Source of the DNA: Methanoregula sp. PtaU1.Bin051
GTDB lineage: Archaea; Halobacteriota; Methanomicrobia; Methanomicrobiales; Methanospirillaceae
Reading direction: 5' to 3'
Assembly: GCA_002067895.1 (NCBI GenBank)
Contig: MVRE01000006.1
Coordinates: forward strand, 248,001-312,000
Length of the DNA: 64,000 nucleotides
In this document: positions 8,006 to 56,666 of the stretch, piece by piece
How positions within the stretch are numbered: position 1 is the first letter of the stretch
Layout: each line of letters begins with the position of its first letter
Program-made: the position numbers and the translations under genes
Notes under the pieces: generated by a model
The model's input: the letters and a program-made list of their open reading frames with translations, nothing else
Told to the model about the DNA's origin: nothing
Databases searched by the model: none

Positions 8006-9660
8006 GTTGCAACGAGACCCGCGATTAGAAGGGTATGAAAACGCACTCACACCGTCGCAACGGAAAAATCTAGAGGAGAGTTGCAACGAGACCCGCGATT
8101 AGAAGGGTATGAAAACAGTTACGTGTCCTCCCAAGAATCCGTGCATCCATCCACAGGTTGCAACGAGACCCGCGATTAGAAGGGTATGAAAACGTCTTTG
8201 AGCGTGATAACAACCCGTGCCGCGCCCTCCGGGTTGCAACGAGACCCGCGATTAGAAGGGTATGAAAACTTGAAGGATCGGGCGCGTAATTTTCCGTGTG
8301 TCTGTTGCAACGAGACCCGCGATTAGAAGGGTATGAAAACTGCGATCCAATTATTACCATAAGTAATAATTCTACGTTGCAACGAGACCCGCGATTAGAA
8401 GGGTATGAAAATTGAACTGCGCGGCGAACGCGGCAGACGAAAGTGGTTGCAACGAGACCCGCGATTAGAAGGGTATGAAAACTCCGAGTTTGCGACGATA
8501 TTCGCGCTTGGCTTGTATCTCGGTTGCAACGAGACCCGCGATTAGAAGGGTATGAAAACTTCTGGCTCTCCACGTATTTCATTAGCACCTATTAGTTGCA
8601 ACGAGACCCGCGATTAGAAGGGTATGAAAACTCTGCCTCAGCGTCGAGGGGGATATCCTCAATTTTGTTGCAACGAGACCCGCGATTAGAAGGGTATGAA
8701 AACACTTTCAATCTGTTCCTTGAGAAGCTCTCTCAGATTGGAAGTTGCAACGAGACCCGCGATTAGAAGGGTATGAAAACAGAATCCCTTGCGGTATTTT
8801 TTATCTGTTCCATTCATAAGGTTGCAACGAGACCCGCGATTAGAAGGGTATGAAAACTCAAGGCTGGTGATGCTGGTTTCGTACGGATAACGTTGCAACG
8901 AGACCCGCGATTAGAAGGGTATGAAAACCCCAAAAGAAATTCTCTCGGTAAATCTTTGGGTCGATTTGTTGCAACGAGACCCGCGATTAGAAGGGTATGA
9001 AAACATGACCTCATACAGGATCGAAATGATCCCACCGACCACGTTGCAACGAGACCCGCGATTAGAAGGGTATGAAAACGTTCGGCGGTGGCGGGGTGCT
9101 GCGTCAAATTAACGTTGCAACGAGACCCGCGATTAGAAGGGTATGAAAACATCAACGCGCTGTGCTACGACCCGGGGCGGGAGCGTTGCAACGAGACCCG
9201 CGATTAGAAGGGTATGAAAACTTAATGATCCCGCCTCCCTCGAGTTCTCCGGCGTTGCAACGAGACCCGCGATTAGAAGGGTATGAAAACATCCGGCACG
9301 TGGAACCTGATATACTGTTTTTCAGTTGCAACGAGACCCGCGATTAGAAGGGTATGAAAACAGAGTTGGGGTTGGGGCCGGAACCGGCATCGTCTGTAGT
9401 TGCAACGAGACCCGCGATTAGAAGGGTATGAAAACGATACCCTTTTCCGAAACAAGGCTTCTGATGCGCCGATGTTGCACTATCACCCGCGATCAGAAGG
9501 GTATGAAAACGGAAGATCCAGCTGTTACCAAACCCGATTAGCTTTTCAATTGCCATGATACCCGGAATTAGAAGGGTAGGTAACTGGAACTCCATCACCT
9601 TGCTTACTATATTGTCTGGATTTGTTGAACAATCGCGTGCGATCAAAAGAGCAGGGTGGC
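8006..9660 (+). CRISPR. CRISPR array, 20 intact and 3 decaying repeats
   Basis: A 37-base repeat beginning GTTGCAACGAGACCCGCG and ending AGAAGGGTATGAAAAC starts at 8006, 8080, 8157, 8233, 8304, 8376 (last base T), 8446, 8523, 8595, 8667, 8744, 8821, 8892, 8968, 9043, 9114, 9185, 9254, 9325 and 9399. Spacers between them are 32-40 bases and all differ. Three further copies keep the register but decay: 9474 (six changes), 9549 (about ten changes, one base short) and 9624 (about half the positions conserved). Decay marks the trailer, so the leader is on the left and transcription is plus. No cas gene is in the window; processing must use Cas proteins encoded elsewhere or the array is silent. Frames reading HTLLIAGLVAT across it are artefacts. 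Confidence 0.97.
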
Positions 9661-9707: not shown

Positions 9708-9764
9708 GAAACGCAGATTCGAAGTTCCGTTGATTCAATTGGTTTGAAAAAAGTGAGGATTGAT

Positions 9765-11105
9765 ATGGTATTCAACACAGCAGTCTTTTACGATCTGGAA
9801 AATCTCCTGAAAGGGTATGACTATACCCATGGTTTTGTCTCTCGTTTGTCATTGAAACGGATTCTGGAAGAAATCCGGCAGAGCGATCGCATCGGGGAGA
9901 TTGCAATTCAGCGTGCATACGCCAACTGGAGCGATCCCCGGCTGGGACAGATGCGCAGCCAGATTAATGAGCTGGGCATTGATCCCATCCAGGTGTTCGG
10001 GTTTTCGTATGACCAGAAAAAGAACGCAGCCGATATCCAGCTGGCTATCGATGCCATCGACCTGATCCATACCCGCCCGGCAATTGACGTTTTCGTCATC
10101 ATATCCGGTGACGGCGGTTTTGCTGCGCTGGCAAAGAAGCTGCATGAATACGGCAGAACCGTGATCGGATGTGCCTACAGGCACTCTGCAAGCAAGACGT
10201 TCCTTGCCGTATGCGATCACTTCGTCTGGATTATCGATCCCGACGATGAGATCCACCTGGGAAAACAGGCCCATGACGGTATCCCGTCGGGCACACAGGA
10301 TCCACGGAACAGCATGGTGGATACGAAGATCCAGAAAGTCACGATGCAGTCAAGGGATACCGTGATTGCAAAGACCCGCGAACTACTGGACTGGTACTCG
10401 AAGAATCCCCTGAGTAAGAATGAGATACTGAAAACAGGCATCCCGTTATCGGTCGTCCGGGAAGGCCTCGGCGTCGTTATCCCCGATTTCCAGCCGGTAA
10501 ACTTCGGTTTTGTAAAATTTATCGATTATTTGCGATGCGCATGTACGGGAACACCATTTGCGGTAATCCGCCGAATCAATAGCCAAGTCAACGTAATATC
10601 ACGGAACGGGAACTACCAGCAGGAAGAACTGTTACCTGATTATGATATCAACGAAATCCATACACCTGAGAACTACCGCCTGTTGCTGGCAACCGGCAGC
10701 CCGTCCCTGAAATTCCCGCCTCCGGCCGATCTTAAACACATTATTGCATGGCTGGTTCAGGATCCGCCGGTTGATCTTCCGTTTGAACAAATCCTGGATG
10801 ATGCTGAAACGATGTGCGAAAGCCGGATACAGCCGGAGTCGATAAAACTCGCCCTCCACAGTCTTCTTGCAATCGCGGAACTATTCGACCGCGAACCTGA
10901 TGGTTCACCGCTGGCGGAACAGAAATTTTCGCTCCGTCAGTCCCTGCGGGAAGAGTCCGCACTGATGGAAAAACTCCGTCAGATCGTATGCGGAAAATTA
11001 CGTGCAGTACTTGGTGATGACAATATCAGTGAAGAGAGTCTTGATGAGATACTTCCAAAACCGGTCAGGATGGATCAAATGCATCAGGACTCATGGGCCG
11101 TCTAG
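9765..11105 (+). CDS. NYN (PIN-like) putative RNase with OST-HTH/LOTUS domain
   Basis: 446 residues from ATG 9765 (gtgagg 8 bases before). Residues 4-155 form a LabA/NYN-type PIN-like nuclease domain: FYDLENL (Asp10), KKNAADIQLAIDAID (Asp90), IISGDGGFAALAKKL (Asp116) provide the metal-binding acidic set. A second part (about 205-290, LLDWYSKNPLSKNEI...GFVKFIDYL) fits an OST-HTH/LOTUS RNA-binding winged helix; the C-terminal 150 residues may hold another helical domain. NYN proteins are RNases acting on structured RNA or tRNA. The gene starts 104 bases after the last decayed CRISPR repeat and precedes csx16, so a role in crRNA metabolism or as a defence effector is plausible, though NYN-OST-HTH proteins also occur without CRISPR. 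Confidence 0.75.
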   Translation: MVFNTAVFYDLENLLKGYDYTHGFVSRLSLKRILEEIRQSDRIGEIAIQRAYANWSDPRLGQMRSQINELGIDPIQVFGFSYDQKKNAADIQLAIDAIDLIHTRPAIDVFVIISGDGGFAALAKKLHEYGRTVIGCAYRHSASKTFLAVCDHFVWIIDPDDEIHLGKQAHDGIPSGTQDPRNSMVDTKIQKVTMQSRDTVIAKTRELLDWYSKNPLSKNEILKTGIPLSVVREGLGVVIPDFQPVNFGFVKFIDYLRCACTGTPFAVIRRINSQVNVISRNGNYQQEELLPDYDINEIHTPENYRLLLATGSPSLKFPPPADLKHIIAWLVQDPPVDLPFEQILDDAETMCESRIQPESIKLALHSLLAIAELFDREPDGSPLAEQKFSLRQSLREESALMEKLRQIVCGKLRAVLGDDNISEESLDEILPKPVRMDQMHQDSWAV

Positions 11106-11280: not shown

Positions 11281-11589
11281 ATGATTTACATCGTGACCCG
11301 GCATGCCGGAGCTGTCGCCTGGCTCCGTGCGAAAGGATTCGGTGGCGAGGTGGTGCCCCATCTCACGGGGGATCAGATCCGGCCCGGGAACATTTACATC
11401 GGCGTGCTGCCCGTTCCGATGATCAAGCTAATCCTTGATGCAGGCAGCCGGTTCTACCTGCTCATGCTGCCGGAGGTCACGCCGGCCCAGCGGGATCAGG
11501 AGATGACGCCAACAGAGATGGACGCGGCCGGCGCACGGCTGGTCGAAGTGAAACGGATCGAGATTGCGCCGGTGGATATGAAGGAATAA
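11281..11589 (+). CDS. csx16: CRISPR-associated protein Csx16 (probable ring nuclease)
   Basis: 102 residues with the Csx16 (VVA1548) pattern along the whole length: IVTRHAGAVAWLRAKGFGG at the N terminus, VPHLTGDQIRPGNIYIGVLP in the middle, then FYLLMLPEVTPAQRDQEMTP and MDAAGARLVEVKRIEI. TRHxGAxxWL and GVLP are the usual signatures. Csx16 is an accessory of type III CRISPR systems; to my knowledge it has recently been reported to degrade cyclic oligoadenylate, i.e. to act as a ring nuclease that switches off the signal made by Cas10. No cas10 is present here, so the signal source must be elsewhere. Length is normal and no frame damage is seen. A Fic-like gene follows by 46 bases in the same direction. 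Confidence 0.85.
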   Translation: MIYIVTRHAGAVAWLRAKGFGGEVVPHLTGDQIRPGNIYIGVLPVPMIKLILDAGSRFYLLMLPEVTPAQRDQEMTPTEMDAAGARLVEVKRIEIAPVDMKE

Positions 11590-11635
11590 GGAGTCTTCAT
11601 CATCTTTAGCCGAAATTTATTTGGGAGGGCAGAAT

Positions 11636-12247
11636 ATGATAACCAAAGAACAATGGTCTGAAAGGGTCCTTAAAACAGTGAGCAGCTTTTCAAGGACAAT
11701 ACACGGAATTTCCGATACGTCAAGTGCGACAGAAAAACCAAAACTTACCGTGAAAGAGGGGAAACAACTTATTGATCGCACTTCTCGCAATCTTTTGCAG
11801 GCGATAGAATATCTTTGGGTCAATCGTTCAATTTCGTTTATCACTTCTTTGGAAGTTCAGGATTTCATTGATTCTCTAGCCATGATTATAAGTGACGGAC
11901 TGCTTCAGCAGGGGCAGTCCCTGTATCGGACATGGGATACCCAGTACGGTCAAACACACCCATCAGAAATTTCAGAGCAATATCATGAATTCTGTAAATG
12001 GTTTCTGTCAACAATGGATTCACATGATCCGGCTGCGACAGCAGCAATCGTGGAAAAGCGACTGAATGGGGAAATCCATCCATTCAGTGACGGGTGCGGC
12101 AGGACTTCCATGCTCCTTGCCGCATTTGTATTATTGCGTCACGACATCAATCCTGCAGTTTACCATTCACGGAAAGAATATTTTGAACTGATTGGCAAAT
12201 CAAACGATGAGGAATGGATTAGGTATTATCGTTCACTTCTTCCATGA
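11636..12247 (+). CDS. Fic/Doc-like protein with a variant active-site motif
   Basis: 203 residues from ATG 11636, preceded by gggagg. The all-helical protein carries IHPFSDGCGRTSM at 147-159, matching the Fic core HPFx(D/E)GNGRxxR except that the Asn is Cys153 and the last Arg is Met159. Catalytic His148, Phe150, Asp152 and Arg156 are kept. Fic proteins move AMP or another nucleotide group onto a target side chain; the changed residues normally shape the anion hole and triphosphate contacts, so substrate use may be altered or lost. It follows csx16 by 46 bases and so is probably co-transcribed. No antitoxin-type inhibitory helix (S/TxxxE[G/N]) is recognised. It could be a defence effector, or a passenger. 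Confidence 0.6.
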   Translation: MITKEQWSERVLKTVSSFSRTIHGISDTSSATEKPKLTVKEGKQLIDRTSRNLLQAIEYLWVNRSISFITSLEVQDFIDSLAMIISDGLLQQGQSLYRTWDTQYGQTHPSEISEQYHEFCKWFLSTMDSHDPAATAAIVEKRLNGEIHPFSDGCGRTSMLLAAFVLLRHDINPAVYHSRKEYFELIGKSNDEEWIRYYRSLLP

Positions 12248-12296: not shown

Positions 12297-12614
12297 TCAT
12301 TCCGAAATTTCGATCAAATCGCCAACGGTAAATTGAGGATCATTACTAATTACAATAACATAGCGATCCATTTTGGGATCGAAAATGCTGATGGCAGAAA
12401 AATATTGTGCTAACCTGTAACTGATGGCAGCAGCAACTGGCAGAGACGCAGGGCCGTTAATTTTAATCAGCCCTCCTCCAGAAAGTTCTCCTTCTCTCGC
12501 CATTTGATCCAGTCGGGAACAAGCATCTTTGACTATCTCGTCATTCTGTGCGTCATCCTTGTTAAATTTCACATGAATGACATCCTTGTCCCGGTAAATC
12601 ACATATGAATCCAT
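12297..12614 (-). CDS. Csx3-like protein (ring-nuclease family fold), variant active site
   Basis: 105 residues. The second half follows Csx3: GGGLIKINGPASLP (residues 46-59, for Csx3 GVVISGRGP), SIFDPKMDRYVIVIS (76-90, for Csx3 AVYDPRLGAVVVQS) and VGDLIEI (97-103, for EGDVIDV). Asp79 of the DP(R/K) motif is present, but the histidines usually found upstream of it in Csx3 are replaced by Arg and Tyr. Csx3 enzymes bind or cleave cyclic tetra-adenylate as multimers. It lies 42 bases downstream of the NTPase gene at 12657, same strand, so the two form an operon; in many genomes the two are one fused protein. That context strengthens a call that similarity alone would leave moderate. Confidence 0.65.
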   Translation of the reverse strand: MDSYVIYRDKDVIHVKFNKDDAQNDEIVKDACSRLDQMAREGELSGGGLIKINGPASLPVAAAISYRLAQYFSAISIFDPKMDRYVIVISNDPQFTVGDLIEISE

Positions 12615-12656: not shown

Positions 12657-13271
12657 TTATAAATATAAAATGTGTTCCGCAAGAGCTTGGACCATCGGAC
12701 GCCCTGAAACATCCAAGCCTCGTTCAAGATGATGGATTGACCCGCGAAGGATATTATCATTGATCAGAGGCAGAATCGTATCATCACTACCATCATAGTC
12801 GGAAACGATTTCTGCAACGATATTTAAATCAAGTTCTTGAGCAAATTTTCGCCATTCTTCAAATTTTTCGCTATCTCTGGAAAGAATTACAATATGAGTA
12901 GCATTTTTGCAAATTTTTTTATTTTCCTCAGACGGTATACCGCCGATGTCAACAATTGTTAAAGGAAGACGACACTTTTCCACATGATTGCTGATTCTAT
13001 TCACAAATTCTGGAGTAAAGGACTTCTTATAATTCTTCTTCAGCTGTTGAGCCCGAGAAGGATTTTTTTTATAAGAAACTTGAAACCAGCATCCTTCTCC
13101 ATCTGGTGCAGCGGTGATAAAAAACGGATACGTGTCTTTTTGTTTTCTTATGATGGCTTTTTTTAATCCCTCCCGTAATACACTTTTACCTGAGTGTGAC
13201 GGGCCACCGAGAACGATCTTTTTATGGGCTCTATGCGACGACGATGATAAACGACTTCTCTCAAGACTCAT
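12657..13271 (-). CDS. P-loop NTPase of the Csx3-associated (Csx3-AAA) family
   Basis: 204 residues. Walker A is GGPSHSGKS at 22-30. The rest follows the NTPase domain that is fused to Csx3 in other organisms: APDGEGCW (55-62), FTPEFVNRI (85-93), PLTIVDIGGIPSEEN (103-117), THIVILS, a W in the sensor region, AEIVSDYDG, LRGSIHHLERG and SGRP. Here it is a separate gene placed upstream of csx3 in one operon, whereas fusions have Csx3 first. The NTPase is thought to modulate the ring nuclease or act on nucleotides; its reaction is not established. It is transcribed toward csx16 and the Fic-like gene, the pairs being convergent, with its promoter in the A/T-rich gap after 13272. Confidence 0.75.
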   Translation of the reverse strand: MSLERSRLSSSSHRAHKKIVLGGPSHSGKSVLREGLKKAIIRKQKDTYPFFITAAPDGEGCWFQVSYKKNPSRAQQLKKNYKKSFTPEFVNRISNHVEKCRLPLTIVDIGGIPSEENKKICKNATHIVILSRDSEKFEEWRKFAQELDLNIVAEIVSDYDGSDDTILPLINDNILRGSIHHLERGLDVSGRPMVQALAEHILYL

Positions 13272-13808: not shown

Positions 13809-14729
13809 ATGAATTCACGAAAGGAAACTGTTTCAATATATTTATCGTTGGGAATTACTTATGTACGGCGTATGAGATACGCGTGGCGCATACTCCTTAC
13901 GGTACTGGTTGTCGTTGCCGTCCTGTCTGTACCGGTCTCTGCAAAGATCCAGTATACAGCGGATGTCAGGTACGATGCCAGCGGCACATTGCCGGGATTC
14001 GGGGAAGAGATCCCCGTCACACTGGTCATCGCTCCCGGAGAAAATGCGATAAAGAATTTAGTAATTACGCTTCGGGAAGCAGATGCGTTCATAGACGATT
14101 CGAATCCCAGTTTTATCACGAAGAAAATTTCACCGGCAGGTGCATCGATCAACATTACCCAGTCGGGATTGTCATTCATGATCGATCAGCTCCAGCAGGG
14201 GCAGACGATAACGATTGACTTCATCGCCTATCCGAAAACGCTCCAGCAACAGAAACTGCATGTTGCGGATGTCGGGTTCAGTTATACCCAGATGGGGGAC
14301 CGGATCGACCAGCCGTATGAACCGGTTTATGCAGATATGTCGGGATCTTCGTGGTTCCAGCTCCAGTCCGCCAACAAAGAGACCTCAATCGTCAAACAGA
14401 ATGCAGAAACAGAAACCAGGAATGCCCAATTCGCCCTGTCAATAGGATTCGTCTTGGTTATCGTGGCTATCGTTATAATTGCATATGTTCTGATAAAACG
14501 GGGCTCATATGTCAGGGAATGTGCGGCACTCAAGGAGAGCAAGAACCAGCTGATGCACGAAATCCTGCGGAAAGTGGAGCTGGCCGAGAACAACAAGGCA
14601 GAGCTGGAGTCGCTGAAAAAGAGACTCCGGACCGAACTAGGGCCGGACACACATGCAGTGACTGCCAAAACAGGCGAAACCGTTACAAAATCCACGTACA
14701 AGGATGACAAGGACTCGGGATTTGAATGA
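13809..14729 (+). CDS. Exported membrane-anchored coiled-coil protein, partner of the tubulin-like gene
   Basis: 306 residues if ATG 13809 (after ggaggg) is used; ATG 13872 would start directly at the signal peptide RYAWRILLTVLVVVAVLSVPVSA. The order is signal peptide, an external beta-rich domain of about 190 residues (IQYTADVRYDASGTLPGFGE...), a TM helix (FALSIGFVLVIVAIVIIAYVLI) and a cytoplasmic coiled coil (ECAALKESKNQLMHEILRKV..ELESLKKRL). The cytoplasmic coiled coil is well placed to bind the filament-forming tubulin-like protein whose ATG lies 14 bases after this stop. Tubulin-like families of this kind have been predicted to act in membrane remodelling together with membrane partners; the partnership here is inferred from synteny. 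Confidence 0.6.
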   Translation: MNSRKETVSIYLSLGITYVRRMRYAWRILLTVLVVVAVLSVPVSAKIQYTADVRYDASGTLPGFGEEIPVTLVIAPGENAIKNLVITLREADAFIDDSNPSFITKKISPAGASINITQSGLSFMIDQLQQGQTITIDFIAYPKTLQQQKLHVADVGFSYTQMGDRIDQPYEPVYADMSGSSWFQLQSANKETSIVKQNAETETRNAQFALSIGFVLVIVAIVIIAYVLIKRGSYVRECAALKESKNQLMHEILRKVELAENNKAELESLKKRLRTELGPDTHAVTAKTGETVTKSTYKDDKDSGFE

Positions 14730-14742
14730 GGAGGTAAAAAAT

Positions 14743-16920
14743 ATGGAAATTCCGACACTGGTAATAGGAACCGGCAGAGGCGGAATCAGTATTGTCCAGA
14801 CCTATGCCGAGATGGTGAATGAACTTAAGATCAAGGATTACTATCAGTTCATTGCGATTGATTCGAGCACCAAGGATCTCGATGCTATCATCAAGCGGGG
14901 ATATTCCATCAATGCGGTCAATATCAGCGAAGAAGGGTATGCTGTCCCGAACCTGATACCCCAGTGCCAGTACCTGTATGACGGTATCGAACCCAAAGGT
15001 GTTGGGGCAATCCGTGATCGTGTCTATGCCCGGTTCCTGCTCGACCTGAATATGGATAAGGTCGACGGTGCCATAACGGACGCGATGGCAAAAATGCTGA
15101 CCGTATGGCAGCAGACGAAAGGGAGCAAGACCAAAGAAGCATTGATATGGGTCGTCCATACGCTTGGCGGAGGGACGGGGAGCGGGTCGTTCCCGACCCT
15201 TATTGCAAAGGTCCGCCAGTTATCTGACGGGATATTGAAAGAAAGCGGCATGAAGCCGTTCATCTTTTGTATTGGAATCCTTCCGTCGGCAACAAACATC
15301 AATGACATCAGCACAGCAAAATTCGACAAGAAGTACACCGCAAACTCCTACGCCGCACTCCGGGAAATAAAAAAGCTCCATACAGCAAAAGATCTCACCA
15401 TTGTCCCGTTCAACCCGGCACGCAGGCCAAAAAAAGAGATACCGGTAAAAAGCCGGCCGTTCGACCGGTATTTCCTCTTTGGCATCAACGAAGACCTGCT
15501 TGCAAGGATGAAGGATGATAAGGATGATAGGGCTGACGAGGTCGAAGAGTATCTTGACGGGGTTAACAAAACGATCGCGTACACGATGCTGTACCTGCCG
15601 CACTATCCCGGCGGCCTTGAAAACATGTGGCATAACCAGAAGGACCGGCCGTTTACGATTTTCGGTGAGAGCGAGCTGACGATCCCTCTCGAAGATATGC
15701 GGAAATACGCACAGGAAAACGACACTCTTGGAAAAGCTCCGGATCCTGAGAAAAAGAAGAGGCTGGACTCCGTTGCAGAGACACTGGCAAAAAGTCCGAC
15801 CGATGATCTGAACGAATCCAGAATTGAAGAGGACTGTCTCTCCATCGCGCAGAGCGAACGGCTGCGCTGCCTCAAATATTTTGTCGGCCAGGTGCAGCAT
15901 GAGTTTGACAAGGAGCTGACAAGAGTCGAAATCCAGTTCAGTGATAATATCCTGCGTCTGGGGGAGTCATTAAAACGCCTTGACTGGGCAGCGGCCGGCA
16001 TGCAGAATTTCGATAACCAGAATATTGAAGACAAATACCGGCAGATTGTAAGGGTCGTCAAAAACCGGATTGAAGATAACCAGAAGTTCATCGACAGCCC
16101 GTTCCAAACGCCGAGAATCTTTGAACGGAAAAAGCGGTCGGACCAGAATGAGAAGAACAGTAAAAAGCTCCGGGAACTCGAAATCCAGTATGACCGGTTC
16201 ATCAAGATACGTGCATTGAAAAAATACATTGACACAAGCCTTGGCAAGAAACTTGTTGATGTCGCCGGCATCCAGGACTTTGGAGCCGGAAATATTGCAG
16301 GCCATATCCGTAAAAGAGAGGCCAGGCTTGAACTGCTCGGAAACCACTTAATCGACAGCGGGATTGGCAGGGTCATAAGGCTTGGCGTTCCCGAAGACAA
16401 GGTGACACGACTCACTCTGGAAGATCCCGGTGGAATCAGGATATCGGAAATTAATTCCATGGCAAAATTTATCGGGACAATGGGCATTGAGAATGCAAAG
16501 GTCGAGTCGTTGATCAAAAACAGGATCGATCTCGCCTCCAACTATACAATAAAAGTTGCGGTCGGATTAACACCCGGGGCAGAGACCGGTTTTACTGCCC
16601 AAGACGAGCTGGTCGTTGTCAACCATGAGAACAATGATCAGATCCTCAAGCGGTTCAGCAACCTGATGAGCCAGTGGAATCTGGGGCAGATCCGAATTGA
16701 CGGGTTTGACAACGGGCGTCTGGTGTTCATGCCATTCCAGGTCGGAGTGGAACTTGAACAGACGAAGGATTTCGTATACCGGGAAAACGAGTACCAGAAT
16801 GGCGAACTGGCAAAGATCATCGGGATAGATAATATCGGTATCATCTTTGCCCACCCGGAATGGTTCCCGGAAGATGAGGTAGTGCGGCGGGCTTATCCGA
16901 AGATTTTTTCTGCGAAATAA
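14743..16920 (+). CDS. Large FtsZ/tubulin-superfamily GTPase-like protein (tubulin_2 type)
   Basis: 725 residues from ATG 14743, preceded by gaggaggt at 14729-14736. The N-terminal GTPase domain shows TLVIGTGRGGISIVQTY (5-21) and the tubulin signature HTLGGGTGSGSFPTLI (139-154), with FIAIDSS at 37-42 and CIGILPSATN further on. It is about twice the size of FtsZ; the second half is Lys/Glu-rich helical (e.g. FERKKRSDQNEKNSKKLREL) and then mixed alpha/beta. The size and lack of the FtsZ C-terminal tail separate it from cell-division FtsZ and CetZ. It matches the FtsZ-like families described by comparative genomics as possible membrane-remodelling GTPases. It forms an operon with the membrane coiled-coil gene just upstream. 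Filament formation and nucleotide use are untested. Confidence 0.75.
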   Translation: MEIPTLVIGTGRGGISIVQTYAEMVNELKIKDYYQFIAIDSSTKDLDAIIKRGYSINAVNISEEGYAVPNLIPQCQYLYDGIEPKGVGAIRDRVYARFLLDLNMDKVDGAITDAMAKMLTVWQQTKGSKTKEALIWVVHTLGGGTGSGSFPTLIAKVRQLSDGILKESGMKPFIFCIGILPSATNINDISTAKFDKKYTANSYAALREIKKLHTAKDLTIVPFNPARRPKKEIPVKSRPFDRYFLFGINEDLLARMKDDKDDRADEVEEYLDGVNKTIAYTMLYLPHYPGGLENMWHNQKDRPFTIFGESELTIPLEDMRKYAQENDTLGKAPDPEKKKRLDSVAETLAKSPTDDLNESRIEEDCLSIAQSERLRCLKYFVGQVQHEFDKELTRVEIQFSDNILRLGESLKRLDWAAAGMQNFDNQNIEDKYRQIVRVVKNRIEDNQKFIDSPFQTPRIFERKKRSDQNEKNSKKLRELEIQYDRFIKIRALKKYIDTSLGKKLVDVAGIQDFGAGNIAGHIRKREARLELLGNHLIDSGIGRVIRLGVPEDKVTRLTLEDPGGIRISEINSMAKFIGTMGIENAKVESLIKNRIDLASNYTIKVAVGLTPGAETGFTAQDELVVVNHENNDQILKRFSNLMSQWNLGQIRIDGFDNGRLVFMPFQVGVELEQTKDFVYRENEYQNGELAKIIGIDNIGIIFAHPEWFPEDEVVRRAYPKIFSAK

Positions 16921-49094: not shown

Positions 49095-52000
49095 TCACTT
49101 CTGGCGCAGGAGCCTGATGAGATCGTTCTTCATCCGCTGCACTTTCTCGTCATGGGGCCGCAGGGCAAGAACGCGGTTGAGTGCGGCAAGGGCCTCGCGG
49201 TGCCGCCCCAGCATCTGGAGGGCGGTGCTCTTGTTGAACCACGCGACTGGATCGCTCTTTTCGAGTGCAAGCGACCGATCGAATGCGGCGAGGGCATCGG
49301 CATGCCGCTGCAGTTCCCCAAGAACGCACCCTAAAAAGAACCATCCCTTGGCAATGGACGGGTCGATGGCAAGGCCGCGCTCGTAGGAATTTACGGCCTC
49401 CTCGAACATGCCGGTGTTCTTCAGCGCAGAGCCCCGGTTGATCCAGCCTGCCGCGTTTTCAGGATCGATGGCAAGGGCCCTGTCGTATGCCTCGACCGCC
49501 TCCATATGCATTCCCATATGGCTCAGTGCAGACCCTTTGTTGTTCCACGCTGCGGCATCAATTGGGTTAAGGGCAAGTGCATGGTCAAAGACGGAGATCG
49601 CTTCTTCGAATTGGCCCAGCCGCATCAGCGCATTACCCTTGTTGAAAAGGGCATCCGTATCGTCCGGGTTAATCGCAAGCGCTTCGTCGAACGCTGCGAC
49701 AGCCTCGGTATGCCTGCCGAGCCGGCTCAGTGCAGACCCCTTGTTGTTCCATGCTTCGGCATTGGCCCGTTCGATGGAAAGTGCCCGGTCAAGGGTAGCG
49801 AGCGCTTCCTCGGAGCGACCGAGGCGATTGAGCGCATTGCCCTTGTTGTACAGGAGTTCCGCATCGTCCGGTTTGAACACAAGTGCCCTGTCATATGCTG
49901 CGATTGCTTCATCATACCGTCCCAACTTGTGGAGCGCAAACCCCTTGTTCCGCCAGCCGACCGGGTGATTCGGCTGGAGTGCGAGGGCATGGTTGTATGC
50001 TGCGACTGCCTCCTCGTGCCTCCCCAGCCAGTGGAGGGCATTGCCCTTGTTGTTCCAGTCAGCGGCCTGATTGGGATCCAGTGAGAGTGCATGGTCGTAG
50101 GCTTCGACAGCTTCTTCGAACCTTCCCAGTTGGCTCAGGGCAAGACCCTTGTTCTTCCAGCTGGCCGTAAGTAACGGGTTGAGACCGAGTGCTTTCTCGT
50201 ATGCAGTAACCGCTTCCTCGTGCCTCCCCAACCTGTCCAGAACAGATCCCATGTTGTTCCATGCATCGGCATCATCCGGGCGAAGGGCAATGACACGGTC
50301 GAGTGCCGGGATCGCATCGGCCGGCCGGTTCAGGGCGATGAGGGCAAGGGCCTTGTTCTGCCATGCCTGCCAGTCATCCGGTTTTACGATGAGGCCATTA
50401 TCATATGTAACGACAGCCTCATCATATCTCCCGAGATCGGTCAGTGCGTTGCCCCTGTTGAACCAGGCATCGTTGTTTTTGTCATCAATGGCAAGCGCTT
50501 TGTCAAAAGATGCGATAGCTTCCTCGTGGCGACCGGTCATGCTGAGTGCAGTGCCGCGGCTGGTCCACCCGGTTGAGTCACGGGGGTCAAGGAGCACCGC
50601 CTGGTCGAGTGCAGTGATTGCCTCTTCCGGCTTTCCCTGCCGGATCAGTGCCAGCCCCTTGTTGTGGTATGCGGTAGCATCGTCCCGCCGGATCGCAAGA
50701 ACCCTTTCAAATGCCGTGACCGCTTCCGGGTATTCCGCAAGCCGCATGAGGATGACCCCCAGACCGAACCAGATATCAGCGTCCTGCGGGAGCTTCTCAA
50801 GAGCCTTGTCGTATGCTGCAACAGCATCGTGGAAATGCTCCAGCTGTTCGAGAGCGGCTCCTTTGTTTGCGAGCACAATCGGATCGGATGGGTCGGCAAG
50901 GAGTGCCTTGTCAAGGGCAGCAATGGCATCATCGGGTTTACCGAGGCTGATCAGGGCAGCACCTTTTGCATTCCATGCCGCAGCCCATGACGGTTCTATG
51001 AACAAAGCCCTGTCATAAGCCGCGATGGCCTCACGGTATTGCCCGAGATCCGAGAGGGCATTGCCCTTCCTGTACCATGCACCGGCATGACGGGTGTCGA
51101 TGGCAAGCCCGCTCTCATAGGCAGCGACAGCTTCATTCAGGCGCTTTACTTTGACAAGAGCGTCAGCTTTCCCGAACCAAGCTGCCGTGGATTTCCCATC
51201 AATGGCAAGCACACCGTCATACGCCGCGATCGCATCTTCATACCTTTGCAACCTGATCAATGCGGCCCCTTTACCCAGCCAGGCGCGGATTAATGAAGGG
51301 TCAGCAGTAATTGCGCGACTGAATGCAGCGACAGCCTCTTCTGAAAGATCAAGCCGGCAGAGTGCCTGGCCTTTGCGGCACCATGCCACTGCGTGATCAG
51401 GGTCGATGGTGAGTGTGCCGTCGAGGGCCACGAGCGCCTTGTCATACTGCCTGAGATCGTACAGGAGGGTCCCCATATTAAACCAGGTATCGCGGGTATT
51501 GTCGCCTAGGGCAATCGCCTGTTCATAAGCAACAATGGCTTCTTGCGGGCGTTCGAGCCGGAACAGCGCCGTACCTTTGGCAGACCAGACGGATGCATCA
51601 TCAGGTTTTAATTCCGCAGATTTTTCAAAAGCGGCGATTGCATCGGCATATCGGTTCATCTGCATGAGTACATGGCCCCGCCGGGTCCATGCCATTGCAT
51701 CGTACGGTGCATAGGAAACCGCCTTGTCGTACGCCTGGGCAGCATCGTCTATCCGGCCGATTTTTTCCAGGCAGATTCCCCGGTTATGCCACATGGACGG
51801 ATCGTCAGGCCTGATAGCGAGCCCCTTATCATATGCATCGATTGCCTCCGGAAACCGGTTGAGGGTCATCAGCGTTATACCGATGCTGCTCCAAGCAGCC
51901 GCATCTTCCGGATTTATCGCGATCGCTCGGTTGAAGGAATCGAGTGCAGCCTCATACTGCCGTATCCCGGTAAGCGCCACGCCCCGCTGGATCCAGATCC

Positions 52001-55000
52001 CTGCCATCTTCGGATCCGTAGCGAGCGCCCGGTCATATTCAACTATTGCGTCTTCGGTCCTGCCGATGCTCTCAAGTGCCTTCCCCTTGGCGAGCCGTGC
52101 AGGGATGTCATCCGGCCGGATGGCAAAACCGCGGTCCAGCGCTGAGACCGCCTCCCGGTACCGCCCGAGAGTGCAGAGGAGCGAACCTTTCTGGAACCAC
52201 GCCGATGCGTCTGAAGGGTCGAGGCTGGCAGCCTTGTCGTAAGCGTCCGATGCTTCCTGTACCCTGCCGAGCGTTTCGAGCACTGATGCTTTTTCCCGCC
52301 ACAGCCCGGCACTTACCGTGCCTGCCGCTGTTGCCTTGTCAAATGATTCCAGCGCCTCGGTGTTCCTGCCGAGCCCGGCGAGCGCTCTTCCCCTGAGGCG
52401 CCATAAATGTCCGTTTGCCGGATCTTCAGCGAGACAACGGTCAAAGGATGCGATTGCGTTCTCGTACTGGTTGTCGTCAAGAAGCACCGATCCAAGGCTC
52501 TGCCACGCCTCATTGTACTCTGGTTGGATCTCAATTGCTCTTCTGTATGCGGCTATGGCATCCGGCCTTTTTCCAAGCGCTTCCAGGGCCGCCCCCTTAT
52601 GATACCATGCCTCGGCATTCTGCGGCAGGATCGTTATCGCGGTTTCATATGCCGCGATCGCCTCCTCGTACCTGTTCAGGCCGGAGAGCGCGTGCCCTTT
52701 ATTGAACCACGCCTGTGCATAGGACGGGTTAAGATCGATGGCCGTATCGAGCGCGGCAACTGCGCGTTCATTCTCATTCATGTTGATGAGGGCCGATCCT
52801 TTATTGTTCCAGACAATGGCGTCATTGGCATCGAGCGCGAGCGCCTTGTCGAAAGAGTCAAGAGCTTCTGCGTACCTTCCTAGCTCGTTGAGTGTCGACC
52901 CCTTGTTGTTCCACGTGACAGGATCAGAGGGATGGAGTGTCAGGGCACTGGTATACGCACGGACGGCTTCCTCATAGCGCCCGGTACCGCTCAGCATGTT
53001 CCCTTTTGCCGCCCAGGCTTCTGCGTATGCCGGGTCGAGACTCAGGGCTTTCTCGTACTCTTCCAGAGCACCGGCCTGGTCGCCTTTACCCTCCAATGCC
53101 CTGCCCCGTGCGAAACGGGCACGGGCATCGTCCGGCTGCAGGGCAAGGGCATGATCCAGCGAATCGATCGCTTCTGCATTCCTGCTGAGCCTGATTAAAA
53201 TAACCCCTCGTTCTGTCCATGCACTGGCGTTGTCAGGGGTCTTTGCAAGCACCTGGTCAAATGCAGAGACCGCGCTCTCATATTGCCCGGTGCCGGCAAG
53301 GGCTGTTCCGCGCCCTGCCCATGCAGCCGTGTTTTCAGGATCCAGCGCTATCGCCCGATCGAACGCAACGATGGCCTCCTCAAGATACCCCAGTACGGTC
53401 ATCGCGGAACCTTTTGCCGACCAGACAGCTGTGAGGTCGGGATTGATGACAAGGGCACGGTCGAAGGCGGCTGTTGCCTCATCATACCTGCCGGTTGCAG
53501 CAAGTGCCCGCCCCTTACCGGCCCATGCGGAAGCATCATCCGGTTTTAATGCAAGAGCCTTGTCAAAGAACTCTGCAGACTCCTCGTTGCGCCCGAGCAC
53601 TGAAAGTACCATTCCTTTCCGGATCAGGAGATCTGCATCATCAGGCCAGGATGAGAGGGCCGAGTCGAGCGCATTTACCGCCTCATCGTACCTTCCGAGG
53701 TTGCACAAAGTAATTCCCTTACCGGCCCATGCTGCAGTATTGTGGGGATCCAGCGCTATCGCACGGTCGAAGGCGACAATCGCATCTCCATACTTTTTGA
53801 GCTGGATGAGGGCGGATCCTTTCTTCTCCCAGATAGCCCCCAGTGATCCGTCAATAACAAGCGCGTTGTCAAAAGCACCTAGCGCTTCTGTAATGCGGCC
53901 TTGTGACAGGAGCGCGATGCCCTTCCCGGCCCACGCAGGTGCAGAACCGGCATCAAGGTTGAGGACGATATCGAATGCCGCAACTGCTTCATCGACCCTG
54001 CCCAGCTGCCGGAGGATCTCAGCCTTAGAAAGCCACGTCTCAGTGCCATGTGGCTCGAGCGTGAGAACATGGTTGTATATCTCAAGGGCTTCTGCAAGCC
54101 TGTTTACGGCGACCAGGGCCCCCCCAAGGTTTTTCCAGATTGCCGGGTTGTCCTGATCCAGCGCGGCAGCCTTGGAAAATGCCTCCGCTGCCTCGCTGTC
54201 CCTGTGCAGTGTTTTAAGAACAGATCCCTTCCGGTTCCAGACAATCGCCTGGTCGGGTTCCAGCGCAAGGGCACGATCGAGAGATGCAAGTGCCTCCTCG
54301 TTCTTCGTGATGCCGGCAAGTGCCGTTCCCCTGCCCGCCCACGCCTGGCCGGATTCGGGGTCGATTGCTAGCGACCTGTCGAATGCGACGATTGCCTCGT
54401 CATACTTCCGTATCTTTAAAAGCGCTGCGCCTTTGCTATACCAGAGAACGGCATCGTCGCCAATGATATGCAGTGCCCGGTCATATGCACGGATCGCAAC
54501 ATCGTACCTCCCGATCTCGGCAAGCGCGTTCCCCTTGTTCATCCATGCGGCCGCATAGTCCGGGCGTATCGCGGTCGCCTGCTCGAAAGCGGCGATTGCC
54601 TCGCGGTGCATGCCGAAATTGAGGAGGGCGAGTCCCTTGTTATTCCAGATTGCGGCGTCCTTCGGTTCGATATCGAGTGCCTGCTGGTAGGTCCTGATAG
54701 CATCCTCGTAGTGCCCGAGCTCGCGGAGCGCCGTTCCTTTCGCGTCCCAGACAGAAGCATCCTTCGCTCCCATCTCGATCGCCCGGTCCAGCGACTCGAC
54801 CGCTTCGATATACTGCCCAAGCCGGAGCATAACCATGCCCCGCCCTCTCCAGACCTCCGGGTCCTGAGCGTTGATACGGGCGGCGTTATCGAAGGATTCT
54901 ACTGCATCCTGCTCCCGGCCAAGGCGGTCGAGAAGATCCCCCCTGACAACCCATGCACGGGAGTCTTTGGGTTCAAGGGTAAGGGCGGTCGTGACAGCTG

Positions 55001-56666
55001 CAAGGGCATCTTCCGTCTGGCCGAGCGATGAAAGGAGCAGGGCTTTATTCAGCCATGCTGTATTGTCGTGAGGATCAGCAGCAATGGCCTTTTCATAGGA
55101 TGCAACGGCGTCGGCAATCCTCCCGAGTTCCTTTAATGCCCCGCCCCGGTTGCACCAGATGATGGCGTCTGCAGGATCGATGGCGATCGCATTGTCATAA
55201 GCTTCAACAGCCTCCTCATGCCGCCCGAGACGGTCGAGCGCTGTACCTTTGTTATTCCAGATCGCCGGATCGTACGGATCCAAGGCGATGGCCCGGTCGT
55301 AAGCGGCTATTGCCTCTTCATACTTTCCTGCAGGGAGCAAGGACAGTCCTCTGGCATGCCATGCAGCCGCAGTGTTCTCTTCGGCCGCCACCTGTTCAGG
55401 GTTTTCAGCGGGGAGGATCCGGGCTTCGGCAGGTTCACCGCGACTTTCCGCGCCCGGTTCCGGTACCGCAGATGTTTCCGGCTCCTGCACCGATTCCGGT
55501 CCGGGCTCTTCTTCAGGCTCCTGTATGCCGACAGGTTCCGCAACGCCTGCTTTGTCAGCCTGTTCAATTTTTTCAGCCTGTTCAATATTTGGTATATCTC
55601 CGGCTTCCTCTGCTGCAGTAATCTCAGGGGGGAGGGCAGGTGATTCTTCCGCTTCTTTACCTGAACCAGTAACAGGCTGGTCAGGCAGTTCCGTTTGTGC
55701 GGCCACGGTAACCTCGTTCTGAAACACGGGGATCCTGGATGTCGCAGCAGCGCCGGCAGGCTCCTCCGGCAATGGTATTTTCTTTAGTTCCAGATCTTCT
55801 CCGACGGGAGCTGTGGATCCATAAGCGGGATCGATGGCTGCAGCGGTCTCGAATGCGGTTGCGGCGCGTTCTGCATGGTTCAGGTCCTTAAGAACCTCGC
55901 CCTTTGCAAACCATGCGGCCGCAAAATGCTGGCGTGCAGCTGTCGCATGGTCGAGCGCATTGAGGGCATCGGTGTTCCTTCCCATCCGGTGGAGCAGGGT
56001 TCCCTTTGAATACCATGCGTCAGCATGTTTCGGATCGAAAGCGAGAGCGGTGTCATAGGCTTCGAGTGCATCATCCCGACGATCAATCTTTTCCAGGGCG
56101 TTTCCCTTGTTATACCATGCGGAGGCCGATTTCGGGAAGATGCCGATTGCGCGGTCGATGACGGCAATTGCGTCCTGATATTTTCCAAGCTTGATAAGGA
56201 CACTGCCGATGTTGTTCCATGCGTCGGCATCATTGGGCCGAAGGTCGATCGCCTTTTTAAATGCCTCTACGGCCCTGTCGAGCTGGCCGAGGTTGTCGAG
56301 AGCGGTTCCCCGGTTGAACCAGATTATAGCCTGTCCGCTGTCGATGGCGAGCGCACGGTTGAGTGAGACAAGGGCCTCCTCGTACCGTTCCAGCTTGTTG
56401 AGCGCCGATCCCTTGTTGTTCCATGCGACTGCATTGTCGGGATTCAGTCCGAGCGCCTTGTCGTACGCATCGTTTGCCTCCTCGTACCGGCCGAGCCTGT
56501 TCAGGGCGTTTCCCTTGTTGTACCATGCATCGGCATTACGTGGCAGTACGGTAAGCACGCGGTCGAATTCAGCAATTGCCTCTTCATGCCTGCCAAGCTT
56601 GATAAGCGCGATCCCCCGGTTGAACCACTTGTAAGCATCCTCCTGATCACTGATCTCTTTACGCAC
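49095..56666 (-). CDS. Giant TPR-repeat protein (2,523 residues)
   Basis: GTG start at 56666 after ggaggg. Residues about 10-280 form eight TPRs (AWYNKGNALNRLGRYEEAND AYDKALGLNPDNA is a typical unit). A Pro/Glu/Ala-rich linker (about 300-425) follows, then about 60 further 34-residue units to the end, total near 70 TPRs. Consensus W-x-x-[KR]-G-x-[AV]-L-x-x-[LM]-G-R-x-x-E-A-[IV]-x-A-[YF]-D-[KR]-A-[LI]-x-[IL]-x-P-[ND]-x-A. Such a chain would make a right-handed superhelix on the order of nine full turns, a scaffold for many partners. No signal peptide or TM segment is visible, so it is probably cytoplasmic. The DNA is one long 102-base tandem repeat on the minus strand. The DnaJ-TPR protein at 56831 is the upstream neighbour. 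Confidence 0.9.
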   Translation of the reverse strand: MRKEISDQEDAYKWFNRGIALIKLGRHEEAIAEFDRVLTVLPRNADAWYNKGNALNRLGRYEEANDAYDKALGLNPDNAVAWNNKGSALNKLERYEEALVSLNRALAIDSGQAIIWFNRGTALDNLGQLDRAVEAFKKAIDLRPNDADAWNNIGSVLIKLGKYQDAIAVIDRAIGIFPKSASAWYNKGNALEKIDRRDDALEAYDTALAFDPKHADAWYSKGTLLHRMGRNTDALNALDHATAARQHFAAAWFAKGEVLKDLNHAERAATAFETAAAIDPAYGSTAPVGEDLELKKIPLPEEPAGAAATSRIPVFQNEVTVAAQTELPDQPVTGSGKEAEESPALPPEITAAEEAGDIPNIEQAEKIEQADKAGVAEPVGIQEPEEEPGPESVQEPETSAVPEPGAESRGEPAEARILPAENPEQVAAEENTAAAWHARGLSLLPAGKYEEAIAAYDRAIALDPYDPAIWNNKGTALDRLGRHEEAVEAYDNAIAIDPADAIIWCNRGGALKELGRIADAVASYEKAIAADPHDNTAWLNKALLLSSLGQTEDALAAVTTALTLEPKDSRAWVVRGDLLDRLGREQDAVESFDNAARINAQDPEVWRGRGMVMLRLGQYIEAVESLDRAIEMGAKDASVWDAKGTALRELGHYEDAIRTYQQALDIEPKDAAIWNNKGLALLNFGMHREAIAAFEQATAIRPDYAAAWMNKGNALAEIGRYDVAIRAYDRALHIIGDDAVLWYSKGAALLKIRKYDEAIVAFDRSLAIDPESGQAWAGRGTALAGITKNEEALASLDRALALEPDQAIVWNRKGSVLKTLHRDSEAAEAFSKAAALDQDNPAIWKNLGGALVAVNRLAEALEIYNHVLTLEPHGTETWLSKAEILRQLGRVDEAVAAFDIVLNLDAGSAPAWAGKGIALLSQGRITEALGAFDNALVIDGSLGAIWEKKGSALIQLKKYGDAIVAFDRAIALDPHNTAAWAGKGITLCNLGRYDEAVNALDSALSSWPDDADLLIRKGMVLSVLGRNEESAEFFDKALALKPDDASAWAGKGRALAATGRYDEATAAFDRALVINPDLTAVWSAKGSAMTVLGYLEEAIVAFDRAIALDPENTAAWAGRGTALAGTGQYESAVSAFDQVLAKTPDNASAWTERGVILIRLSRNAEAIDSLDHALALQPDDARARFARGRALEGKGDQAGALEEYEKALSLDPAYAEAWAAKGNMLSGTGRYEEAVRAYTSALTLHPSDPVTWNNKGSTLNELGRYAEALDSFDKALALDANDAIVWNNKGSALINMNENERAVAALDTAIDLNPSYAQAWFNKGHALSGLNRYEEAIAAYETAITILPQNAEAWYHKGAALEALGKRPDAIAAYRRAIEIQPEYNEAWQSLGSVLLDDNQYENAIASFDRCLAEDPANGHLWRLRGRALAGLGRNTEALESFDKATAAGTVSAGLWREKASVLETLGRVQEASDAYDKAASLDPSDASAWFQKGSLLCTLGRYREAVSALDRGFAIRPDDIPARLAKGKALESIGRTEDAIVEYDRALATDPKMAGIWIQRGVALTGIRQYEAALDSFNRAIAINPEDAAAWSSIGITLMTLNRFPEAIDAYDKGLAIRPDDPSMWHNRGICLEKIGRIDDAAQAYDKAVSYAPYDAMAWTRRGHVLMQMNRYADAIAAFEKSAELKPDDASVWSAKGTALFRLERPQEAIVAYEQAIALGDNTRDTWFNMGTLLYDLRQYDKALVALDGTLTIDPDHAVAWCRKGQALCRLDLSEEAVAAFSRAITADPSLIRAWLGKGAALIRLQRYEDAIAAYDGVLAIDGKSTAAWFGKADALVKVKRLNEAVAAYESGLAIDTRHAGAWYRKGNALSDLGQYREAIAAYDRALFIEPSWAAAWNAKGAALISLGKPDDAIAALDKALLADPSDPIVLANKGAALEQLEHFHDAVAAYDKALEKLPQDADIWFGLGVILMRLAEYPEAVTAFERVLAIRRDDATAYHNKGLALIRQGKPEEAITALDQAVLLDPRDSTGWTSRGTALSMTGRHEEAIASFDKALAIDDKNNDAWFNRGNALTDLGRYDEAVVTYDNGLIVKPDDWQAWQNKALALIALNRPADAIPALDRVIALRPDDADAWNNMGSVLDRLGRHEEAVTAYEKALGLNPLLTASWKNKGLALSQLGRFEEAVEAYDHALSLDPNQAADWNNKGNALHWLGRHEEAVAAYNHALALQPNHPVGWRNKGFALHKLGRYDEAIAAYDRALVFKPDDAELLYNKGNALNRLGRSEEALATLDRALSIERANAEAWNNKGSALSRLGRHTEAVAAFDEALAINPDDTDALFNKGNALMRLGQFEEAISVFDHALALNPIDAAAWNNKGSALSHMGMHMEAVEAYDRALAIDPENAAGWINRGSALKNTGMFEEAVNSYERGLAIDPSIAKGWFFLGCVLGELQRHADALAAFDRSLALEKSDPVAWFNKSTALQMLGRHREALAALNRVLALRPHDEKVQRMKNDLIRLLRQK

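Follow-up and report, generated by a model that had tools for sequence, protein, structure and literature searches.

FtsZl1, described in 2010, is a tubulin-superfamily branch without an assigned function; a guess from gene context led to the prediction of membrane remodelling (PMC2875224). Methanospirillum hungatei JF-1 was among the species aligned for the family, and neighbours encoding vWA, kinase, GTPase or OmpA proteins are typical of most FtsZl1 operons without defining them (PMC2875224). CRISPR is absent from the main text of that paper (PMC2875224). The FLSHclust paper notes proteins with a tubulin domain close to CRISPR loci and counts them among the vWA-related systems, together with kinases and phosphatases (PMC10910872). 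A survey of type III effectors (PMC11229360) and one of ring nucleases (PMC12409355) mention neither tubulin nor DHH in their main texts. A search of mainly open-access main texts for tubulin in type III CRISPR or cOA signalling gave no account of the gene pair described here and no experiment on it. The FtsZl1 family itself is already known.

The pair is located in a 64,000-nucleotide stretch of DNA from the methanogenic archaeon Methanoregula sp. PtaU1.Bin051, referred to as the window. A membrane partner of 306 aa, recognized from its open reading frame and predicted topology, is encoded at 13809-14729 (+), and a Tubulin_2/FtsZl1 GTPase of 725 aa, recognized from Pfam PF13809 and an AF2 model, at 14743-16920 (+). 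The two genes are separated by 13 nt, and the gap contains a GAGGAGGT ribosome-binding site. An earlier note on this DNA had proposed a two-gene operon, and this is supported, both open reading frames being real, on the same strand and at these positions.

The GTPase matches the Pfam model PF13809 (Tubulin_2) with 73.7 bits (E 2.1e-20), above the curated cut-off of 27, and the general Pfam Tubulin model weakly; Pfam gave no match to FtsZ_C or CetZ_C. The GGGTGSG loop, which the earlier note had pointed out, is situated at residues 142-148 in the nucleotide-binding domain and is invariant across the nine members of the clade defined below. Judged by its sequence, the protein is a member of the FtsZl1 family of Makarova and Koonin 2010. 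It would be expected to bind and hydrolyse GTP and to polymerise; the conserved positions of the clade alignment contain no clear match to the catalytic T7-loop acids.

The AF2 model of the GTPase monomer, built on a 7-sequence alignment (pLDDT 75, pTM 0.54), has a predicted tubulin/CetZ fold. Among known structures Foldseek ranks CetZ2 best (E 7.5e-8), with TubZ also among the matches, and VIA-align returns Z 19.0 for both CetZ 3zid_B (295 residues, rmsd 6.0) and tubulin 8yal_E (311 residues, rmsd 4.4); the tubulin fold put forward earlier is therefore upheld by structure prediction. The model further reveals an H7-like helix (264-287) bearing the invariant N275, with conserved GLEN-W and FGESEL motifs downstream of it. 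Helices at 335-349, 358-411, 428-451, 459-498 and 515-537 form a long coiled-coil/helical region after the GTPase domain. Since the structure alignments span model residues 2 to ~696-711 and cover nearly the whole target, residues ~335-600 appear to be a helical insertion (~270 residues) within the tubulin fold, followed by the tubulin C-terminal (activation) domain at ~620-710; model confidence is low beyond residue 600, so this placing of the C-terminal domain is a prediction. The large extra region that the earlier note had put at the C-terminus is thus predicted to be internal.

Three canonical FtsZ/CetZ genes, with open frames of 375-396 aa, are present at separate loci of the window genome, which makes a primary division role of the pair unlikely. 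The idea that its GTPase is a canonical division FtsZ was dropped on this ground. We also note a second large tubulin-family protein in this genome (G000, contig C3; L129:2894-5059), a CetZ-like protein of 721 aa in which Tubulin and CetZ_C fall within the first 381 residues and ~340 are extra; similar long frames occur in genomes G070 and G053.

The membrane partner, for which Met22 at 13872 is an alternative start, has hydrophobic segments at ~25-47 and ~205-233. Its predicted layout consists of an N-terminal signal/anchor (~25-47), a beta-sandwich, a TM helix (~205-233), a cytoplasmic coiled coil (to ~276) and a basic tail. In the AF2 model (pLDDT 75), an N-terminal helix precedes a beta domain (47-176). 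Next comes a long helix (181-259), in which the TM helix continues into the cytoplasmic coiled coil, and residues 278-306 form a disordered tail. The hydrophobic segments and the model agree with the topology first proposed, namely a signal peptide, an outside domain, a TM helix and a cytoplasmic coiled coil. The ectodomain (46-183) is predicted to be extracytoplasmic and Ig-like, and its nearest structures are of the MSCRAMM/CNA type (Z 12.2, 126 residues, 3.1 A). Foldseek matches of the partner to adhesins indicate no more than a shared Ig-like fold. The tail is disordered and basic, its last residues being SGFE. A Phe-ending basic tail is present in seven of the nine clade loci and absent from L025 despite the adjoining array, and it is therefore not a strict CRISPR mark.

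A cas6-cas10-RAMP-card1-cas1-cas2-array locus begins ~12 kb before the window. The window itself contains a further CRISPR array (8006-9510; repeat scan) with 20 near-identical copies and a degenerate last copy of a 37-nt repeat, GTTGCAACGAGACCCGCGATTAGAAGGGTATGAAAAC, which is identical to the repeat of the cas10-cas1-cas2 locus array just upstream of the window. This array is followed directly by a gene for an NYN-domain nuclease of 453 aa (9744-11105, +), and then by csx16 (11281-11589, +), fic, encoding a Fic-domain protein (11621-12247, +), csx3/crn3 (12297-12614, -), the AAA half of a Csx3-AAA protein (12657-13271, -) and the pair. Csx16 and Csx3 belong to cA4 ring nuclease families (PMC12409355). 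NYN RNases associated with CRISPR have been published before. In the PADLOC Csx3-AAA model, Csx3 and the AAA part are one fused protein, whereas separate genes encode them here. The earlier description of an adjoining defence island was correct in that defence genes are nearby; these form the end of a type III CRISPR locus, a link that had been missed. None of the vWA, kinase, GTPase or OmpA neighbours is found next to the pair in the window, where the neighbours are NYN, csx16, fic, csx3, AAA and MFS genes; a vWA-like ORF ~2 kb from the partner gene in G073 is a single case.

Other features of the window may be recorded here. A group II intron-type reverse transcriptase (RVT_N, RVT_1, GIIM) is encoded at 915-2459, between the cas1-cas2 locus and the window array, and a similar-looking ORF is situated at a comparable place in G070 (L075:18385 onwards). 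A giant protein of 2523 aa, nearly all tetratricopeptide repeats (49 TPR_1 stretches), is encoded at 49095-56666 (-). A sigma-70 promoter scan did no better on the sequence than on shuffled versions, as expected in an archaeon.

Strong GTPase matches were obtained in six of the 232 genomes of the class and strong partner matches in exactly the same six. These genomes together with loci L025, L026 and L027 make up a clade of nine loci, and the two genes are adjacent in every one of the six genomes and the nine loci. Conservation of the gene pair, the lack of which the earlier note had named as a refutation, is thereby supported. The closest relative is in G070 (56% identity), and the others share 34-43% identity. 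Of the three additional loci, L025 belongs to Ca. Syntrophoarchaeum, while L026 and L027 lie in two bins with the labels Thermotogae and Aerophobetes, respectively, which may be wrong. The GTPase relatives were recovered from the genome contigs by an alignment-based search; a single-sequence search of the same contigs gave none. A scan of viral contigs gave no relative and thus no sign of viral carriage.

A more distant version of the pair occurs in G276, and partner homologues adjoin two haloarchaeal FtsZl1 genes (L060, 2e-15; L061, 1e-34). This points to the pairing as an old feature of archaeal FtsZl1, and the haloarchaeal cases, in which the same kind of partner is present without CRISPR, suggest that the pair works outside CRISPR too. 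The view that only CRISPR-type loci carry the membrane gene was dropped for this reason. At two other loci (L063:4310-7929, L062:1646-5487), the gene after a distant archaeal FtsZl1 gene (860-930 aa) encodes another single-pass membrane protein with an ectodomain. Membrane proteins are thus repeatedly paired with FtsZl1 even where the partners look unrelated. Large HD-motif proteins, with no confident match in Pfam, are encoded a few kb from the pair in Syntrophoarchaeum-type loci (L027:7414-10464, L059:16507-18387).

Seven of the nine clade loci adjoin CRISPR arrays or type III cas/csx genes, compared with none of 25 distant archaeal FtsZl1 loci (Fisher p 7e-6, indicative only, as the genomes are related and the controls are mutually related and partly short). 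The two unlinked loci are contigs of 6 and 11 kb, and G073 and G075 represent one species. Cas10 is encoded in 21 of the 232 genomes, namely in 5/6 of those bearing the pair and 16/226 of the others (Fisher p 2e-5). Wherever the contigs permit a measurement, Cas10 lies ~10-24 kb from the pair, and the GGDD cyclase motif is present in all six Cas10 proteins read (G000, G070, G073, G075, G005 and L026/L077). A search for Cas10 in G053, G542 and G544 found none. In the tree, CRISPR linkage is not gathered into one clean clade, and some branches are long.

The gene orders vary. In G070 the order is csx16, DHH-HD-CE, partner and GTPase, with arrays close by and Cas10 24 kb away. The M. hungatei genomes (G073, G075) have CARF5-HTH, a small membrane protein, partner, GTPase, DHH-HD-CE and two Csx1, followed by Cmr1 in G075 and by an array in G073, where Cas10 is 24 kb away. 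The pair and DHH-HD-CE of G005 are on a contig that opens with an array, and the repeat of this array is also found at the end of the cmr-cas1-cas2 contig. L026/L077 carries a cas10-cmr operon, DHH-HD-CE, an IS21-like insertion, partner and GTPase, and L025 has an array 0.8 kb beyond the GTPase gene. Ring nucleases and CARF proteins found near the pairs include Csx1, CARF5, Card1, Csx16 and Csx3. Neither the GTPase nor the partner matches CARF, SAVED or another known cyclic-nucleotide sensor in Pfam, NCBIfam or PADLOC, the latter two of which lack a model for either of them. Because no known cOA sensor is thus present in either protein, the pair is not filed as a cOA effector.

The DHH-HD-CE protein has HD-CE (PF24391), HD and weak DHH domains. 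Its gene adjoins the pair in five loci (G070, G073, G075, G005 and L026) and is absent from the window genome. It also occurs away from the pair: in G218 after a cmr operon and csx16, in G031 fused to Csx16 and 3' of Cmr5, Cmr6 and Card1, and in G053 after csx16 on a different contig from the pair. These csx16/cmr settings mark DHH-HD-CE as a type III gene independently of the pair. Its usual neighbour in such CRISPR loci is csx16, and the Csx16 fusion is seen in one genome. The genes identified are L007:7118-8950, L009:11650-13332, L008:3250-4950, L010:2575-4239, L026:3450-5231, L099:9580-11400 and L098:2819-4885. Both DHH and HD are folds of hydrolases, and the protein may plausibly degrade nucleotides. 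We also observed a similar trio away from CRISPR in G021 (L136:7948-13961), which consists, in this order, of an HD-CE gene, a CetZ/Tubulin_2-like gene and a gene for a secreted/membrane protein.

The genomic association of the pair with type III CRISPR is well supported by comparative sequence data. The gene orders show that the pair has a recurrent place in type III loci predicted to be cyclase-competent, frequently in the company of DHH-HD-CE, a ring nuclease or a CARF protein. Antiviral immunity may thus have taken a cytoskeleton-like device into its service. We consider the chances about even that type III CRISPR-Cas has recruited the pair, an archaeal FtsZl1 (Tubulin_2) module, as an accessory tethered to the membrane. 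In such a mechanism, the GTPase would bind and hydrolyse GTP and polymerise, and the coiled coil and tail of the partner would hold the polymer to the membrane from the cytoplasmic side, much as ZipA or SepF do with FtsZ. Viral RNA sensed by Cas10 would cause the membrane-bound polymer to be assembled or switched, either directly or indirectly via nucleotide signalling. The switched polymer could alter the envelope, with a block of division, virion exit or membrane function, and DHH-HD-CE could remove a nucleotide signal or substrate and so set or reset the response. As neither protein has a known cOA sensor, activation may be indirect, may proceed via an unrecognised site, or may be absent. 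Against the accessory role, besides this lack of a sensor, the pair is confined to a handful of lineages, two clade loci on short contigs lack a CRISPR neighbour, haloarchaeal FtsZl1 genes have such a partner away from CRISPR, and in the window genome the pair is outside the cas operon itself, ~23 kb from Cas10.

The foremost rival to an accessory role, although on balance somewhat unlikely, is that the pair is the general envelope-remodelling or stress module predicted for FtsZl1 in 2010, which would simply be located in CRISPR/defence islands or be carried along with them and contribute nothing to CRISPR immunity. The partner ectodomain and TM helix point to the envelope, the partner gene adjoins haloarchaeal FtsZl1 away from CRISPR, and Tubulin_2 or CetZ-like genes of G021 and G062 stand beside other membrane proteins and an HD-CE protein with no CRISPR matches. 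However, linkage at 7/9 versus 0/25 loci and Cas10 in 5/6 versus 16/226 genomes, across pairs as divergent as 34-56% identity, exceed what islands alone readily give, and the neighbouring DHH-HD-CE gene is itself a type III gene. A stand-alone antiviral system, co-located in the defence island and independent of Cas10 signalling (abortive infection by membrane-tethered filaments, for example), would fit the patchy distribution (6/232 genomes), the NYN, Fic and Csx3-AAA neighbours, and the Syntrophoarchaeum-type loci in which the pair is present and cas10 was not detected; the linkage is nevertheless particular to type III genes and not to a mixture of defence genes, neither protein is covered by a PADLOC model, and this explanation is quite improbable. 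A TubZ-like filament that segregates or positions mobile-element DNA is most improbable, since the distant profile similarity of the GTPase to RepX/TubZ and the TubZ structure matches are set against a conserved partner that is an ectodomain membrane protein, and a phage or plasmid TubZ system was dropped as the neighbourhood of the pair showed neither a plasmid replicon nor a gene for a TubR-like DNA-binding protein and the viral-contig scan gave no relative.

A bolder version of the accessory role, which we regard as rather doubtful, is that a membrane-tethered tubulin-superfamily polymer constitutes a new class of type III CRISPR effector, whose assembly would be triggered by Cas10-made nucleotides, sensed by the GTPase, the partner or DHH-HD-CE. 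In infected archaeal cells the polymer would then seal off the envelope, remodel it or put it out of action. The type III CRISPR-linked subclade provides a concrete and testable setting, antiviral signalling, for FtsZl1 proteins. If the accessory role is true, a cytoskeletal output would join effectors that are now mostly nucleases, proteases and pore-like membrane proteins. DHH-HD-CE, the companion of the pair, is another type III gene yet to be characterised, and its product may act on signal nucleotides.

The pair can be compared with several known systems. CetZ and the FtsZ1/FtsZ2 of the window genome share the predicted fold, CetZ giving the best structure matches; in contrast, they are encoded at separate loci and have canonical length, and the GTPase of the pair lacks FtsZ_C and CetZ_C. 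ZipA and SepF are membrane tethers of FtsZ. By analogy, a single membrane protein is proposed here to hold a tubulin-superfamily polymer at the membrane, but the partner has an Ig-like ectodomain and no known sequence relation to ZipA or SepF, and its tethering role is inferred only. The type III membrane effectors Cam1, Csx23, Cam2/Cam3 and CorA resemble the pair in that a membrane protein is present in a type III locus with a cyclase-competent Cas10. Cam1 and Csx23 differ in that each has a nucleotide-binding domain itself, as has been proposed for Cam2 too (PMC11229360); none of these effectors is described with a tubulin-fold GTPase partner. The tubulin-domain proteins of the FLSHclust systems are likewise close to CRISPR loci (PMC10910872), whereas the GTPase here has no adjoining vWA and its companions are a single-pass Ig-ectodomain protein and DHH-HD-CE. 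With the FtsZl1 proteins described in 2010 (PMC2875224), the GTPase shares the N-terminal tubulin GTPase domain, the GGGTG(S/T)G motif, the large coiled-coil/helical region and membrane-protein neighbours. In contrast to them, the subclade of the window has no adjacent vWA, kinase or OmpA gene and resides in type III CRISPR loci with DHH-HD-CE, and the AF2 model predicts two elements not identifiable in 2010, namely a helix resembling H7 and a tubulin domain at the C-terminus.
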